Source: Psychrobacillus sp. NEAU-3TGS
GTDB lineage: Bacteria; Bacillota; Bacilli; Bacillales_A; Planococcaceae
Assembly (NCBI RefSeq): GCF_029955155.1
Contig: NZ_JAPNOZ010000006.1
Span: 186,001 to 250,000, forward strand
Direction of reading: 5' to 3'
DNA length: 64,000 bases
Below the pieces are notes generated by a model. The model did no database searches, was not told the DNA's origin, and was given only the letters and a program-made list of their open reading frames with translations. Positions 13,423 to 57,775 of the stretch are shown one piece after another (positions within the stretch are counted from its first letter, which is position 1; every line of letters begins with the position of its first letter). The position numbers and the translations under genes were made by a program.

Positions 13423-14357
13423 AGTGTAACCACCTCCTCTTGCTTTCTTTGCTCCGCTTTACGCCATATGTAAGCGACAATTATCGTCAATACAAACGCT
13501 GTCACGAGTCTTATTAAAAATAAAGGCAGAATTGGTACGCCTAATGGTATAAAGATTAACGTATCCTCAACGACAGCATGACATGCCACTAAAAAGATAA
13601 AGGCAAGTGTCGCATCCTTTTTACTTACTCCATCCTCCTGCACTGCCTGTATCATCACTCCAGCGCCATATGCAAGCCCTATTGTAAGCCCCGCAACAAG
13701 TGTTAAAGAGGCATTTTGCTGAATGCCAATAACTTTCGTAAATGGGGCAATCTTCTCGGAAAACTTCTGCAAATAATTACGGTCCTTTAACACTTGGATA
13801 ATAATCATTAATGGGATAACAATTAGTGCAAGTTGTAAGACGCCAAAAGTCGCTTTTTGTAAGCCAAGTAAAATAATCTCTCCCCAACCATCAGGAATTT
13901 TCTCGGTACTTGCAATTGCACCATACTTAGCGATTTCTCCCCCACCATGCCAAACTAAATTGATAACCACGGCGGATAAAATAGCTAATCCAAAACGAAC
14001 GACTAAAACAACCCAAAGTTTAACTCCTACTCGTAGCGCAACGCCTGTTTCGATAAAGATATTATGTGAAAATGACAACATCGTGGCTAATATAAATACT
14101 TCTTTCACCGTTAGATCCAGTGAAAGGATTCCTGCTATACCTGCATAGAGGTTCAATGCATTTCCTAAAACGAGTGGGATAGCTGCTTCCCCTCTAAGCC
14201 CAAGCAGACCCATAAAAGGCGAGATTAAATCGATGATCCACGGGAGAACTGGAGTATACTGCAAAATAACTACGATTAAAGTAATTGGAAAAATCACTTT
14301 ACTTAATGTCCATGTAGTTTTTAGCCCTGCTAAAAGCCCCCTTTTTAATGTCCCCAC
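13419..14357 (-). CDS. Nucleoside-recognition (Gate) domain membrane protein, YvoD-like
   Basis: 312 residues with about eight hydrophobic segments forming two Gate-type halves (for example IPLVLGNALNLYAGIAGILS and LTLVAGLTIGLAYGAGVMIQ). Substrate and role are unknown. It sits between lgt and ppaX as yvoD does in Bacillus, overlapping ppaX by 4 bases, with an 18-base gap to lgt. Confidence 0.85.
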   Translation of the reverse strand: MGTLKRGLLAGLKTTWTLSKVIFPITLIVVILQYTPVLPWIIDLISPFMGLLGLRGEAAIPLVLGNALNLYAGIAGILSLDLTVKEVFILATMLSFSHNIFIETGVALRVGVKLWVVLVVRFGLAILSAVVINLVWHGGGEIAKYGAIASTEKIPDGWGEIILLGLQKATFGVLQLALIVIPLMIIIQVLKDRNYLQKFSEKIAPFTKVIGIQQNASLTLVAGLTIGLAYGAGVMIQAVQEDGVSKKDATLAFIFLVACHAVVEDTLIFIPLGVPILPLFLIRLVTAFVLTIIVAYIWRKAEQRKQEEVVTL

Positions 14358-14375
14358 ACAATTCCCTTCTTTCCC

Positions 14376-15185
14376 TTACTTGTCCTGATATCGAACGACT
14401 GGTTTAACCGTCATTCTTCTATATACAAACAAAATAATTGCAATCGCAATCGTTACTAAAGAAATAACCTGAGCTTGTCGTAAATCTCCTATTAAATAAA
14501 GGCTATCTGTACGCATTCCTTCAATAAAGAATCGACCTACTGAATACCAGGTCAAATAAAATAGGACCATTTCTCCGCGACGTAAATTTACTTTACGTAG
14601 AAGAATTAGAATGATAACTCCGATTAAATTCCATACCGATTCATATAAAAAAGTAGGATGATAATACTTACCATCAATATACATTTGATTAATAATCCAT
14701 TCCGGAAGCTTTAAGTTTTCTAAAAAGCTTCTCGTTACTTCCCCACCATGTGCTTCTTGGTTCATGAAATTTCCCCAGCGCCCAACTGTTTGTCCGATTA
14801 AAATACTCGGAGCAACAATATCCGTAACTTTCCAAAAAGAAGTACCCCTCTTTTTCGTAAAAATGTAGGCAGTGATAAACGCTCCAATTAAAGCTCCGTG
14901 AATCGCGATTCCACCATTCCAAATCTCAATGATTTTGCCAGGATTCTGTCCGTAATAATCCCACTTAAAAATAACATAATAAATTCGAGCACTAATAATC
15001 GCGATTGGTACAGCCCAAATTAGTAAATCAGTTAAATAATCAGGATGAAATCCACGTTTCACCATTTCTTTTTGTGCTACTAAAAAAGCTATAATTATTC
15101 CGAACGCAATAATTATACCGTACCAACGCACTTCTAATGACCCTAATGAGAAAGCCACCGGATCTATCGCTTGTAATAAATTCAT
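14376..15185 (-). CDS. lgt: Prolipoprotein diacylglyceryl transferase Lgt
   Basis: 269 residues, polytopic membrane enzyme with about seven spans. Family signatures: [12 protein letters not shown] near residue 92 and [13 protein letters not shown] near 137. It moves diacylglycerol from phosphatidylglycerol to the lipobox Cys of prolipoproteins; candidate substrates here are the lipoproteins at 56.4-57.2 kb and 59.5-60.3 kb. It follows hprK by 24 bases in one operon. Confidence 0.96.
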
Positions 15186-44362: not shown

Positions 44363-45250
44363 ATGGAGTTTAAAGACTTAGAAATTTTTCAAATGGTTGC
44401 ACAAAAAGGAACAATAACGGAAGCAGCAAAAGCATTAAGCTATGTGCAATCGAATATTACATCCAGAATACATAAGCTGGAAACAGAACTAAATACGCCA
44501 CTTTTCAATCGTCATAACAGAGGAATGAGCTTAACCCCAGAAGGTAAAAAACTATTAGTATATTGCGAGAAAATATTAACCCTAACGACTGAAATGAGAA
44601 AAGTAGTACAAAGCGGAGAAGATCCTTCTGGTAAGTTAGAAATTGGATCAGTAGAAACAGTTATTAACTTACCAACTATATTATCTGCTTACACGAGGAA
44701 GTATAAAAACGTGGATCTTTCCCTTCTAACAGGTGTAACAGAACAATTGCAACAGGATGTGTTGAATCATCGTTTGGACGGAGCCTTTGTAACAGAAACA
44801 GATGTGCACCCAGATCTTGTATCTCATGATGTTTTTCAAGAAGAGCTTGTGTTAATTTCAGATATGAAAGCAACTTCGTTAGAACAATTAATCGAGGAGC
44901 CTTTCCTTTGTTTTAGCAAAGGGTGTGGATATCGTGCAAGACTAGAAGCATGGTACAAAGATCAAAATATTCCCCCTCAAAAGGTAATGGAATTTGGGAC
45001 GTTAGAAACCATTTTAAGTAGTGTTGCAGTAGGCCTTGGAGTCACGTACGTCCCTAGATCCGTTGTGGCTCATTTAGAAAAACGAGGACTTATCCAATGT
45101 CATATCCTTCCTGATAAATATAGTAAGATCAAAACAATCTTCATCAGACGTTCCAATGCCTATCTAACATCCACAATTGAAAAGTTTATCGAAACGATCG
45201 AACATACCAAGCATGAGACGACAGAGCCATTATCTTTCATTGTTAACTAA
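44363..45250 (+). CDS. LysR family transcriptional regulator
   Basis: 295 residues. N-terminal winged HTH (MVAQKGTITEAAKALSYVQS, then NITSRIHKLE) and a periplasmic-binding-like effector domain from about residue 88. Divergent from the EamA gene, which it likely controls. Effector unknown. ATG follows GGAAGG. A strong terminator follows. Confidence 0.92.
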   Translation: MEFKDLEIFQMVAQKGTITEAAKALSYVQSNITSRIHKLETELNTPLFNRHNRGMSLTPEGKKLLVYCEKILTLTTEMRKVVQSGEDPSGKLEIGSVETVINLPTILSAYTRKYKNVDLSLLTGVTEQLQQDVLNHRLDGAFVTETDVHPDLVSHDVFQEELVLISDMKATSLEQLIEEPFLCFSKGCGYRARLEAWYKDQNIPPQKVMEFGTLETILSSVAVGLGVTYVPRSVVAHLEKRGLIQCHILPDKYSKIKTIFIRRSNAYLTSTIEKFIETIEHTKHETTEPLSFIVN

Positions 45251-45327
45251 ATTAATGGCGAGCAATTAGTTCTCTTATACCAGTAGCTTTGCGATAACGG
45301 TCTTTTAAGTGCAATAAAAGCTGCTAA

Positions 45328-45376
45328 AAAAAGCGTTATCTTTTACAAAATTTCATCTGTAAAGATAACGCTTTTT
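45328..45376. terminator. Bidirectional terminator
   Basis: AAAAAGCGTTATCTTT (45328-45343) pairs with AAAGATAACGCTTTTT (45361-45376), with further ACA/TGT pairing, about 19 pairs with one bulge. Serves the LysR gene and the converging small-protein gene. Confidence 0.85.
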
Positions 45377-45426
45377 AAGCTTCCCAGTATTAGACATAAC
45401 TTTTAAAATAAAAGGAGCAGATTTAG

Positions 45427-45669
45427 TTACTCAACATCTTTAAGCATTTTCTCAATCGTACTTAATCTTTCTTCAATACCATTTAATTTGGACTGTAGCA
45501 GATTGGTATTCTCTTTTTCTAAGGCAAGTCTTTCGTCCGCTCGTCTTTCAAAACGTTTAACAACGCTCACTATGAATACTATAATAGCTACAAAAATTCC
45601 TATAAAAATTATTAAAGGAAGTAACGAGAGAAATAAGCCGAATATAGTGAATCCATCCATATTTTCCAC
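45427..45669 (-). CDS. Small membrane protein with coiled-coil tail
   Basis: 80 residues. One long hydrophobic segment (residues 8-36, LFLSLLPLIIFIGIFVAII) then a heptad-patterned charged helix ending IEERLSTIEKMLKDVE. No named family recognised. It follows the winged-helix gene by 11 bases, so it may be the target or partner of that regulator. Confidence 0.7.
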   Translation of the reverse strand: MENMDGFTIFGLFLSLLPLIIFIGIFVAIIVFIVSVVKRFERRADERLALEKENTNLLQSKLNGIEERLSTIEKMLKDVE

Positions 45670-45680
45670 CTCAAGATTGC

Positions 45681-46001
45681 TTATTTTTTTCTTTTTATCG
45701 ATAAAGACTTAGATAAATCATGTATTAGTTGTTCATTTAAGACAAAATGAATGTCATTTAGCTGATAGAATTTCGCTGCTTGGCCAGTTTCTAAAATTTC
45801 CATATCACTTGAAACAAGATTCGCCTCCTCTAATTTTTGTAGGTGCAGATACAATAAAGGCCTGCTAATGCCAAGCTCACGAGCAAGATGGCTAACGTAT
45901 TGTCGCCCCTCAGATAAAACCGCAATAATTTTTAAACGCTGTGGATTGGACAAAGCCTCTAAAACAAGAAGTAATTCATCACCATTATTAAAATATATCA
46001 T
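45681..46001 (-). CDS. ArsR-like winged-helix regulator
   Basis: 106 residues. ALSNPQRLKIIAVLSEG near residue 16 and the recognition region VSHLARELGISRPLLYLHLQ near 36-55 are ArsR-like. No metal-binding Cys pair, so not a metal sensor of the classic type. Probably represses its own operon with the small membrane protein. No obvious ribosome site precedes the ATG, so the start is uncertain. Confidence 0.78.
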   Translation of the reverse strand: MIYFNNGDELLLVLEALSNPQRLKIIAVLSEGRQYVSHLARELGISRPLLYLHLQKLEEANLVSSDMEILETGQAAKFYQLNDIHFVLNEQLIHDLSKSLSIKRKK

Positions 46002-46122
46002 ATGTAAGTATTTTATTACACATATAATAAAACTTCAATAGTTCCAGTGTAAGACACAGCTTTTAACACGGGCAGCATTCCTACGTAAAACAAAGCTGTT
46101 GCAATCGAAAATTAAGAGATTG

Positions 46123-46259
46123 TCCAGGTTTTGAGATTTATTTTCCAACTTTTGATAGAGATTGTCCAACTATCTTTAAAGCTTGTCCAGTTTTCGTGCA
46201 TTATCGTCCAACTATTAGATATGATTGTCCAACGCGTCAAACAGGTTGTTTTCCAACAG
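46123..46259 (+). repeat. 21-base-period array of TGTCCA(A/G) words, seven units
   Basis: The tetramer TCCA begins at 46123, 46144, 46165, 46186, 46207, 46228 and 46252: five intervals of exactly 21 and one of 24. The fuller word is GATTGTCCAACT with variation; the other 10-13 positions of each unit differ. No reading frame runs through. It fills most of the 309-base gap 46002-46310, upstream of the ArsR gene and next to the GntP terminator. The rest of the gap (46002-46120) shows nothing clear. Confidence 0.8.
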
Positions 46260-46260
46260 C

Positions 46261-46308
46261 AAAAAAGCGCATTTTTCTAAAATCCAATAGTAGAAAAATA
46301 CGCTTTTT
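46261..46308 (-). terminator. Terminator of the acid-sugar operon
   Basis: On the minus strand AAAAAGCGTATTTTTCTA pairs with TAGAAAAATGCGCTTTTT, ending in six T. Two bases after the GntP stop. The last unit of the 21-base array touches it. Confidence 0.85.
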
Positions 46309-46310
46309 AG

Positions 46311-47633
46311 TTAAGAAATAATCATATTAAGGATTAACACACCAGCTAGTCCTACTAACGAAAGAATCGTTACCATAACAGACCATGTTTTAATCGTTTT
46401 CCCGATAGAAAGATTGAAGTATTCCTTGTAAATCCAGAATCCTGCGTCATTCACATGGGAGAATGTAATACTTCCGGCACCAGCTGCTAACACCATTAGT
46501 TCTGGGCTTATGCCAGTAATTCCTACTAAAGGAGCTGCAATACCCGCAGCCGTCATTCCTGCTACCGTAGCAGATCCAACAGCTACTCGTAAGATAGCGG
46601 CAATCAACCAAGTTAGCAGTAATGGAGAAAGTGTTGAGCTAGCCATAATGTCTGCAATATATTGATCAATATGACTATCGATTAATACTTGTTTAAATGC
46701 ACCACCGGCAGCGATGATTAAGAGAATCATTGCAATGCCACTAACCGCATCTGTAACCGATTGCATAACTTCTTTCATTTTTTTACCGCGATTCAGACCA
46801 AATGTAAAGAATGCAAAAATTACGGATAATAATAGGGCAACATTGGCATTACCAATAAAATCAAAGAACGGCATAACAGCTGAATCTGGTGCTGCGATGA
46901 CAACAATTACATGAGATGCTATTAAAATAACAGGCATCAATGCTGTAATAAGACTTGTAGCAAATCCAGGCATTTCATCTTCCGTAAATTCTTTCGGATT
47001 AAAAAGTCCTTTTGGAATTTCAACTTCTAAAGATTCCTTCTTGAAAAACTTCGTAAATAATGGTCCACCAATAATAATCGCTGGAATCGCAATAATGACT
47101 CCATATACTAATGTTCTTCCAATGTCTGCATCGAACACACTAGCAATAGCAGTTGGTCCTGGATGCGGAGGAACAAAACCATGCATCGTTATAAGTGCTG
47201 CGATTACCGGCATACCAATATATAAAACTGGCACTCCAGCGGCAGTAGCAATCGTAAATACTAAAGGAATTAATACAACAACTCCTGTTTCAAAAAACAA
47301 TGCAATCCCTACGACAGATGCGGTCAAAACAGCTGCTAATTGCACTCTCTTTTTCCCAAACGCATGAATAAGTGTCGTAGCAATACGCTGAGCCCCACCT
47401 GAGTCAGTCATTAACTTACCAAGAATTGCCCCAAAGATAATAATCATCGTCAGGCTTCCAAGTGTTCCACCTAAACCGCCCTGGACAGATGTCATTGCTT
47501 CCAGTGGTGTCATACCTTCTAATATACCTACAACAAGCGAAACTAAAATAAGCGAGATGAAAGCGTTTAACTTAAATACAATCATTAATAGAAGTAGAAG
47601 TGCAACCCCTATACAAACAGATACTATTGGCAT
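46311..47633 (-). CDS. GntP family gluconate/sugar-acid permease
   Basis: 440 residues from the ATG at 47633, 6 bases after GGGGA; upstream readings run through an intercistronic hairpin. About twelve spans; family blocks GGLGGTLGSLTMIIIFGAIL, HGFVPPHPGPTAIAS and FSHVNDAGFWIYKEYFNLS. Proton-linked uptake of aldonate-type acids. Last gene of the dehydrogenase-kinase-aldolase operon and presumably its uptake system. Confidence 0.92.
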   Translation of the reverse strand: MPIVSVCIGVALLLLLMIVFKLNAFISLILVSLVVGILEGMTPLEAMTSVQGGLGGTLGSLTMIIIFGAILGKLMTDSGGAQRIATTLIHAFGKKRVQLAAVLTASVVGIALFFETGVVVLIPLVFTIATAAGVPVLYIGMPVIAALITMHGFVPPHPGPTAIASVFDADIGRTLVYGVIIAIPAIIIGGPLFTKFFKKESLEVEIPKGLFNPKEFTEDEMPGFATSLITALMPVILIASHVIVVIAAPDSAVMPFFDFIGNANVALLLSVIFAFFTFGLNRGKKMKEVMQSVTDAVSGIAMILLIIAAGGAFKQVLIDSHIDQYIADIMASSTLSPLLLTWLIAAILRVAVGSATVAGMTAAGIAAPLVGITGISPELMVLAAGAGSITFSHVNDAGFWIYKEYFNLSIGKTIKTWSVMVTILSLVGLAGVLILNMIIS

Positions 47634-47660
47634 TCGAATTCCCCATTTCGATTTAGAAGC

Positions 47661-47687
47661 TTGTCCCCATGTAAGACACAGGGACAA
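47661..47687 (-). promoter_or_regulatory. Intercistronic stem-loop between aldolase and permease genes
   Basis: TTGTCCC (47661-47667) and GGGACAA (47681-47687) pair perfectly across a 13-base loop, 4 bases after the aldolase stop, with no T-run. It may lower or protect the permease part of the transcript. Confidence 0.5.
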
Positions 47688-50972: not shown

Positions 50973-50990
50973 ATAACTTTAACATTTTAT

Positions 50991-51041
50991 ATTGTATACT
51001 CTTTTCATTATTTTGTATACATTTTTGTTTATTTCGTACAC
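50991..51041. promoter_or_regulatory. Three phased GTATAC operators for the GntR regulator
   Basis: ATTGTATACT (GTATAC at 50994), TTTGTATACA (51015) and TTCGTACAC (51036) are each 21 bases apart, putting them on one face of the helix. They sit between the regulator and its divergent operon, the usual place for an FCD-GntR operator. Confidence 0.6.
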
Positions 51042-51131
51042 TAAATGGACACTTTATAGATTAGTACTTTCTTTCCTTAATTTATTTTGATAAATTTGAT
51101 AGTAATGAAATAGATAATTGGAGTGAAAGCA

Positions 51132-51767
51132 ATGACTCAGTACGATAAAAATTCTCGCTTTGCTTCCAAACAAGCATATGAGGTAATTCGTGATCGGATA
51201 TTGAATGGAGATATGCCAGGTGGCACAAAAATTGTCGAAGAAAAATTAGCCGCTGAATTAGGATTTAGCCGGACCCCTATTAGAGAATCATTGCGACAAT
51301 TAAATTATGAAGGGCTTATCGTCAATAAAAAGGTCGTACAGCCTACAGAAAAAGATTTACGAAACTTGTTTCAAGTAAGAAGTCTACTAGAAGGATTCTC
51401 AGCAAAAGCAGCAGCAACCTATTTACCAGAAGAAGATTTAAACGCTCTTTCTAATTGCATAAAAGTAGGAAGAGAAGGAACTATGGAAGAAATCATGGAT
51501 GCAAATGAACGTTTTCATGAAATTATTGTTCAAGCCAGCGGTAACGCACTTATGATAGACACTATTCATCGTATGAAATCCATTATCTATCTTTTTCGTA
51601 AGACCGTGGTGCTTTATAATCGCCCTCGATTAATAGATGAGCATGAGGAAATTTATGAATCGATTAAAGCAAGAGATGGCGAGAATGCGAAGAAACTAAT
51701 GGAAGACCATCTGAAAGAGGATTTAGATTTTTGTCTGCATATATTAAATAGTTCAAAAAACGCATAA
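51132..51767 (+). CDS. GntR family (FCD domain) transcriptional regulator
   Basis: 211 residues from the ATG at 51132, 8 bases after GGAG; the GTG at 51123 overlaps that site. Winged HTH EEKLAAELGFSRTPIRESLR near residues 37-56 and an all-helical FCD effector domain with metal-binding pattern (DANERFHEIIV, HEEIYESIKARD, MEDHLKEDL). Likely local repressor of the acid-sugar operon, with a pathway intermediate as inducer. Confidence 0.92.
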   Translation: MTQYDKNSRFASKQAYEVIRDRILNGDMPGGTKIVEEKLAAELGFSRTPIRESLRQLNYEGLIVNKKVVQPTEKDLRNLFQVRSLLEGFSAKAAATYLPEEDLNALSNCIKVGREGTMEEIMDANERFHEIIVQASGNALMIDTIHRMKSIIYLFRKTVVLYNRPRLIDEHEEIYESIKARDGENAKKLMEDHLKEDLDFCLHILNSSKNA

Positions 51768-57509: not shown

Positions 57510-57606
57510 TTTTTAGAAATTTGTGTAAAATATTTTATTTGGCATGGAATGTTTAAATCAAAACAAGCATCTGCTTTTCATACCGTTAAAGGTCCATTTA
57601 TTAATG

Positions 57607-57690
57607 CGCAACATATCAAGCGATACTCGCAACATTGAAAGGCAAATGCGCAACATTATAGAGCATTTGCACAACGTTCACAAAAACCAG
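57607..57690 (+). repeat. 21-base-period array of CGCAACAT words, four units
   Basis: CGCAACAT starts at 57607, 57628 and 57649 and its variant CACAACGT at 57670: three intervals of exactly 21. Units also tend to carry TTGC or TGCG just before the word. Part of the 717-base gap 57165-57881, which otherwise holds a broken small gene and the pair at 57733. Confidence 0.75.
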
Positions 57691-57732
57691 TCAATGTCAT
57701 ATTCGTCTCACACCAAGTAAACTTGTTATTTG

Positions 57733-57775
57733 GTTGCTTTCAATGATAGTTTAGTTGCTCTAAACCATTTACTTC
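57733..57775 (+). repeat. Pair of GTTGCT words 21 bases apart
   Basis: GTTGCT at 57733 and 57754, each followed by TT/TC and an AT-rich stretch. Next to the CGCAACAT array, and the same word as in the loose array at 16.65 kb. Two units only. Confidence 0.35.

Follow-up and report, generated by a model that had tools for sequence, protein, structure and literature searches.

Non-coding DNA of Psychrobacillus and of other Bacilli contains rows of short conserved words that recur every 21 bp, or two helical turns, and are separated by filler of variable sequence. The register, and not the word, is what is shared, because peaks at lag 21 recur in four of five genomes under differing words. The array found in the window (the whole 64-kb stretch of DNA analysed here) is confirmed as a real, non-coding feature. 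We read such arrays as helically phased rows of protein-docking words, that is, candidate sites on one face of the DNA, and give this explanation about an even chance of being correct. The window array and its surroundings comprise the following features.

46120..46259, + strand: array of seven TTGTCCA-like words with variable filler (from the sequence, a shuffle test and relatives within the own genome).
45681..46001, - strand: gene of an ArsR-type regulator, 106 aa (PF01022, 9.2e-13), located 5' of the array and transcribed away from it.
46262..46309, no strand assigned: hairpin flanked by T-runs, immediately 3' of the array; fold z -5.8 (+) and -6.0 (-).
46311..47687, - strand: gene of a GntP-family permease (PF02447, 1e-157), its 3' end facing the 3' end of the array; the ORF is drawn from its first start, and the real start is possibly later.

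The seven words (in order TTGTCCA, TTTTCCA, TTGTCCA, TTGTCCA, TCGTCCA, TTGTCCA and TTTTCCA) start on the + strand at 46120, 46141, 46162, 46183, 46204, 46225 and 46249, with steps of 21, 21, 21, 21, 21 and 24 bp. Re-reading the sequence reproduced exactly the TCCA positions of the earlier note (46123 to 46252, five steps of 21 and a last one of 24). Its statement that no reading frame explains the array also holds, as the array is intergenic, with the ArsR-type gene and the GntP gene on either side. When the 64-kb window was scanned for any 7-mer, with one mismatch allowed, at any step of 10-60, the longest run was the window array itself, with six words at step 21. Among 60 dinucleotide shuffles the best run had three words in 58 and four words in two. 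Tandem Repeats Finder reports the first part of the array only (46115-46171, period 21, 69% matches). RNA structure of the array does not exceed that of shuffles (z 0.37 and 1.30), and an Rfam search of 45200-46500 with E up to 1 gave five sub-threshold matches, none of them credible. The hairpin behind the array is likely the gntP terminator, readable in both directions; it is absent from the list of a terminator scan, and similar hairpins, identified by eye, adjoin gntP in array-less species. With seven words, three of them off consensus, the window copy is probably the remnant of a once maintained array, and it seems to be decaying.

The own genome (G000) contains seven arrays of the TGTCCA word with 4 to 29 words each, located, from reading of the fetched regions, at these places:

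C2:305277, C2:640458, C11:191222, C11:284071, C13:304127, C16:1279 and the window.

A DNA search of this genome gave 14 matches. A word-pair pattern with up to two mismatches matched 179 times versus 84 times for the reversed control, and exact word pairs 33 times versus once. The same core and register, with unrelated filler, are present in three genera (Psychrobacillus, Sporosarcina and g35), and arrays reach up to 40 words; a long one occupies 1,827,234-1,828,024 in G208. The kept block of this family spans about 14 bp (unit positions 20-21 and 1-12), and the remaining 7 bp or so are free. The six core positions together reach 9.8-11.8 of 12 bits, and each of positions 13-19 has about 0.03-0.6 bit in all groups but one of the five, G240, which has 13 units only. 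The earlier note had put the kept positions at 8-11 per unit: the uneven conservation stands, and the family-wide block is larger.

The family is sporadic. An exact TTGTCCA pair occurs at least five times in 10 of 261 genomes, and a search for the TTGTCCA pattern in genome contigs returned 50 stretches, 12 of them from Psychrobacillus. The remaining 38 were coding seven-residue repeats, uniform tandem repeats and single pairs, with the exception of L071, a Sporosarcina MAG whose array has variable filler. In viral contigs (two patterns, 52 loci) the arrays seen were uniform ones only, in five loci, and three arrays searched in 72,556 plasmid records found no match. One array of P. vulpis (L118) and one of Sporosarcina G208 (L129) share a five-gene neighbourhood, which presumably includes thiD-like and bshB2-like genes, and lie in opposite orientation relative to these genes.

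Steps within the TGTCCA family, counted over unique units, were 21 bp (370), 19 bp (59), 18 bp (10), 20 bp (6) and 22 bp (1). A shortening by 2 bp is thus favoured over one by 1 bp, because the chain finder treated 19 and 20 alike; the rarity of the 22-bp step says less, because 22 was penalised more. The 2 bp missing from 19-bp steps are lost from the free part of the unit. In the own genome the steps are 21 bp, with an occasional 19, one 20 and one 24, and the occasional 19-bp step among the 21s gives the long arrays higher-order units of 82 or 103 bp. Long arrays of the family generally contain one 19- or 18-bp step per 3-5 units, and the mean step inside higher-order units having a 19-bp step is about 20.3-20.6 bp. 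Whole higher-order units (82-84, 102-104, 206 and more bp) are tandemly copied inside arrays. Some of the 19-bp steps go back to a single event multiplied by this duplication, which counts against protein docking, as do the short arrays of P. vulpis, with 44 steps of 21, one of 20 and none of 19. The interpretation of the earlier note is thus supported in part, and its alternative of a slipped and now constrained repeat is partly correct as well, units of 82, 84 and 102-104 bp being copied in tandem.

The register was also analysed in samples picked regardless of arrays, 400 kb per genome in 20 stretches each, from five genomes. Clusters here group non-coding runs of at least four words, and one long array can yield several clusters. 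By lag, there were one cluster at 16 and two at 21 in G000; one at 9, one at 18, seven at 20, 21 at 21 and seven at 40-42 in G208 (Sporosarcina); 15 at 21 and one at 42 in G013; and 10 at 21 and one each at 9, 42, 45 and 50 in G011. G446, from another family (f14), had two clusters at 21 and 15 of its 20 clusters at 52-53 bp. For lags 15-30, runs of at least four words covered 2130 b of non-coding DNA at 21, 712 b at 20, 72 b at 18 and none at other lags in G208, 1507 b, all at 21, in G013, and 174 b at 21 and 64 b at 16 in G000. Non-coding 6-mer autocorrelation is concordant with these covered bases: its maxima lie at lags 21 and 42 in four genomes out of five, and z at lag 21 is 7.6 (G000), 21.7 (G208), 12.6 (G013), 16.5 (G011) and 3.4 (G446). 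The lag-21 signal that the earlier note proposed to look for is therefore the top lag in the own genome and prominent in three relatives, and weaker in G446. In coding DNA of G000, G208 and G013, lag 21 is merely one among many multiples of 3. The E. coli K-12 control (200 kb, 35 kb of it non-coding) had no array at lag 20-21 and no autocorrelation peak at 21; its one cluster was at lag 48. Docking is weakened by the existence of word families with a 20-bp step and by the predominance of 52-53 bp in G446. The 15 clusters of 52-53 bp in G446 (L336-L355; about five helical turns) are non-coding arrays of several unrelated sequences, some with inverted repeats, and the lag-52 autocorrelation of this genome reaches a z of 143.

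The words themselves are diverse. A second word family of the own genome, TTCCAACTAA, has variable filler and is present in at least eight places. Two further features lie in the window.

57606..57690, + strand: second array, four words of the type GCGCAACATT; 21-bp step, non-coding, no ORF of at least 100 aa.
57730..57759, - strand: two words of a third family, GGTTGCT/TAGTTGCT, the reverse of the GAAAGCAACCAA type; one 21-bp step, identified by eye.

The GCGCAACATT array is marginal when taken alone, a run of four being reached also in 2 of 60 shuffles, and the pair at 57730..57759 is too short for testing alone; the GGTTGCT/TAGTTGCT type forms arrays of 4 and 5 words in L266 (G000) and in L331 and L321 (G011). 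A triple TCCAA pattern at step 21 was found in 101 of 261 family genomes (an order-wide search returned the identical 261 genomes) and, among 398 genomes sampled from the class, in 90; single matches are often coding, and the places tabulated are a lower bound. By our own count of the table it occurs at least five times in 41 family genomes, including G095, which has a uniform repeat. The reversed control matched in nine genomes, among them G013, which bears genuine arrays of another word, AACCTTGC. Variable-filler arrays were read in G000 (TTCCAACTAA), G446, G338, G470 and G509, and the words of sampled arrays include TTGCTTGCACTC, CCGCGCTCATAA, ATCAGC, ATTGTCGTAAA, CGACCGATT, GAAAGCAACC and others.

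Several of these loci have features of their own. L251:330 (G338) has ten or more GGCTCATAA-like words at 20-bp steps, separated by variable filler, and Sporosarcina G208 contains arrays of the similar word TATGAGCGC/GCGCTCATA (L284 and L293, with a looser form in L281). In L244 and L245 (G509), inverted copies of TTCCAAGGAA precede the TTCCAAGGAA arrays, which gives the entire block the look of a dispersed element. At L284:12432-15482 (G208), long array regions flank one gene (13975-14892) on both sides; words such as GTTTCGAGG and TGTTGTGAGG alternate there every 21 bp, and arrays make up most of the non-coding DNA.

Comparison of G000 with G006 over six arrays gave 25 substitutions in 427 word sites (0.059 per site), 202 in 848 filler sites (0.238) and 283 in 2866 flanking sites (0.099). 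Words thus change more slowly than flanks and filler faster, with the filler rate inflated by mispaired units, because the aligned arrays contain unit gains and losses. At the window locus itself the classes do not differ (word 3/35, filler 4/73, flanks 24/444), which counts against docking; the conserved words and variable filler expected by the earlier note at orthologous sites are seen over the six arrays, and at the window locus the word is kept no better than the flanks. G006 has two units fewer there and shows no uniform 21-bp repeat of the kind that, according to that note, would have spoken for simple decay. In the gntP comparison, 7 of 19 genomes gave a strong gntP match and were read, and in five of them (G010, G012, G017, G003 and G001) the 330 bp beside gntP are different sequence and contain no array. 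A second locus, one intergene traced through 19 Psychrobacillus, carries an array in G000, G006 and G012. In G016 it has, by eye, three YTTCCAAA words at 21-bp steps behind one TTGTCCAAC, and in G017 about 1.4 kb separate the flanking genes, and the downstream one has an array next to it. Short array-less intergenes were found in G011, G014, G003, G009, G007, G013 and G018 and longer unrelated ones in G008, G004 and G001; G010, G002, G015 and G005 gave no readable junction.

The gene neighbours of arrays are predictions of a codon-usage ORF caller rather than curated annotation. The 21 array-bearing intergenes in the G000, G208 and G013 samples comprise 8 convergent, 10 codirectional and 3 divergent ones. 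Convergent intergenes are over-represented (8/21 versus 15% expected by bases, p 0.009), and divergent promoter regions are not enriched (3/21). Of 38 TGTCCA arrays (42 less 4 with no called downstream gene), 31 have the gene on their 3' side pointing against them, and the same holds for 13 of 19 arrays of other words (L239, with a short ORF called inside, was excluded from 20). Once orthologues had been merged by hand, 23 of 31 codirectional gene pairs had an array antisense to them (p 0.011), as had 18 of 22 for the TGTCCA families (p 0.004). In three complete genomes, none of 27 array places lies in the terminus-proximal 23% of the arm, an after-the-fact count in which G272 was given a rounded length of 4.2 Mb, single word pairs underlie the places G208 1634773 and G272 3341585 and 3936838, and five isolated G208 pairs were omitted. 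Arrays point away from dnaA in 12 of 13 places in Sporosarcina G208 and towards it in 5 of 5 (G265) and 9 of 9 (G272) in g35. We rejected replichore polarity as a general rule, as it is consistent within a genome and reversed between genera, which again counts against docking. Part of this polarity may follow gene orientation, and other word families in G208 look mixed in orientation by eye.

Two candidates for a known site were also rejected. A promoter array (on the reverse strand TGGACA, 17 bp, GACAAT) fails for the other words and is ill-suited to convergent gene ends. DnaA boxes are of the TTATNCACA type, and a cluster of them does not match Sporosarcina G208, where position 1 varies freely and 99% have A and C at positions 8-9.

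Among known repeat systems, CRISPR arrays combine near-identical repeats, at least some 21 bp long, with unique spacers of comparable length and neighbouring cas genes; with some 14 bp kept and 7 bp free, the unit architecture here is different, in agreement with the earlier note. MIRU/VNTR-type repeats are intergenic direct repeats of about 50-100 bp, variable in number and uniform in their units, whereas the 103-bp unit here itself consists of five diverged 21/19-bp subunits. Plain tandem repeats decay evenly over the whole unit and information here is uneven along it, so that this distinction of the earlier note is likewise borne out. The closest known kind are the STAR elements (Staphylococcus aureus repeat) of staphylococci, which are likewise interspersed intergenic direct repeats with a short kept word, locus-specific spacers and many loci per genome (PMC3532100). 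They have the GC-rich 14-bp consensus T(G/A/T)TGTTG(G/T)GGCCC(C/A) and spacers of at least 40 bp, vary in copy number, occupy other loci in other species and are of unknown function (PMC3532100). The words here (TTGTCCAAC, TTCCAACTAA, GCGCAACATT and others) do not follow that consensus, and steps are 18-22 bp instead of spacers of 40 bp or more (PMC3532100). The arrays also differ in having units of 20-21 bp with 7-14 bp free, words that vary between species and within a genome, and a helical register that spans differing words. RemA of Bacillus subtilis forms a ring-shaped oligomer on poorly conserved repetitive DNA, of which 107-159 bp are needed, and illustrates that Bacilli possess a ring protein for such DNA; its sites differ in having 7-bp protected blocks with 3-bp gaps (10-bp period), being AT-rich and lying before a regulated promoter (PMC8481266). 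A search of open-access literature with narrow terms found no description of arrays like those reported here. We class them with intergenic direct repeats, as a variant whose novelty lies in the chromosome-wide register.

Of the explanations that compete with docking, the most serious rival is a selfish bacterial satellite, in which an enzyme would copy arrays in 21-bp register, with the word as its recognition or priming site and no gain for the cell; we regard it as possible, if rather improbable. It would account for the sporadic occurrence (10 of 261 genomes with at least five exact pairs), the array-less intergenes of close relatives, the tandem higher-order copies (82-84, 102-104, 206 and more bp), the several unrelated words within one genome and the change of word at one orthologous locus. 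Copying should, however, homogenise filler together with word, yet the filler is nearly free, and the plasmid search was negative. A lower probability still attaches to an RNA element, transcribed towards a terminator as a row of single-stranded protein-binding or pairing words, which we consider unlikely. The array has no stable fold of its own, the 3' gene points against it in most cases (31/38 and 13/19), and a hairpin with a T-run stands behind the window array and, by eye, several others. Promoter-like sites lie upstream on the array strand (11/12 at 45557, 9/12 at 45900), and both strands together hold 10 versus 5.2 in shuffles. Against this, the two-turn register would bring no benefit to an RNA, several Sporosarcina arrays have by eye no visible terminator behind them, and the better promoter-like site lies about 530 bp upstream, beyond a gene on the opposite strand.

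It is very unlikely that the arrays are ordinary 21-bp tandem repeats that decayed. The window copy by itself would be compatible with such an origin, since word, filler and flanks have changed alike there, and Tandem Repeats Finder does report a 21-bp repeat in it. Decay should nevertheless be even, and the contrast between core (9.8-11.8 of 12 bits) and positions 13-19 (about 0.03-0.6 bit) is not; slippage has no preferred period, yet G208 and G013 show nearly only 20-21 bp and multiples; and G006 lacks a uniform repeat at the window locus. We give equally little credence to tandem sites through which an ordinary transcription regulator would control the genes next to the array. MocR/GntR operators indeed consist of direct repeats whose spacing of two or three helical turns places them on the same side of the DNA, and two-turn direct repeats are known for MocR regulators (PMC5320631). 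The window also holds GTATAC, GTATAC and GTACAC at 50994, 51015 and 51036 before a GntR/FCD gene. Those operators have two or three sites each, whereas the arrays here have up to 40 words and occur at many gene ends (PMC5320631). In place of a few repeats in a regulated promoter, as in the MocR/GntR class, we find many loci, an over-representation of convergent gene ends and no enrichment of divergent promoter regions (3/21). The GTATAC/GTACAC words themselves (50987-51041, three words at 21-bp steps, ahead of the regulator gene 51123-51767) are likely an operator with two-turn spacing.

Docking on one face of the DNA fits best because two-turn spacing persists under different words, the spacer is free, no RNA fold is seen, steps shortened by 2 bp are common and those shortened by 1 bp rare, no reading frame is present and the plasmid and viral searches made gave no match. 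The word would be the contact site of a DNA-binding protein, and the two-turn step would set all copies on one face, where proteins could line up next to one another along the helix. Helical drift may be corrected by the 19-bp step, and arrays would expand and contract as higher-order units. The effect of such an assembly might be local, for instance by insulating gene ends or by providing a platform for anchoring or titration. A separate binding protein could exist for every word family, or specificity could change within a single protein family; that several word families per genome would demand several specificities counts against docking. When 301 predicted proteins near arrays were compared all against all, eight cross-genus groups resulted, which we take to be ABC-transporter-like, surface-protein-like and a conserved neighbourhood of five gene pairs, and nothing looked array-specific. 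Because no partner protein was found among the array neighbourhoods, function stays at the level of what we infer.

More broadly, we tentatively propose, as something short of probable, that many Bacilli have a chromosome-wide, register-locked non-coding architecture of word rows every two helical turns, often with higher-order units of about 103 bp, species dialects of a word and unrelated vocabularies within one genome. With the geometry invariant and the sequence not, one assembly machinery would have to serve all words, either a family of DNA-coating or DNA-wrapping proteins whose specificity can be exchanged or a copying enzyme whose footprint spans two turns. The usual view of bacterial intergenic DNA is one of promoters, terminators and debris. 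Its clearest periodic signal in four of the five sampled Bacilli is the two-turn register under unrelated words, and what looks like decayed filler may therefore be spacing for a one-sided DNA reader. If a protein coats the arrays, they would represent a layer of chromosome organisation not yet described; if an enzyme copies them, they would be a bacterial satellite with a built-in ruler. The arrays point to an undescribed use of non-coding DNA.
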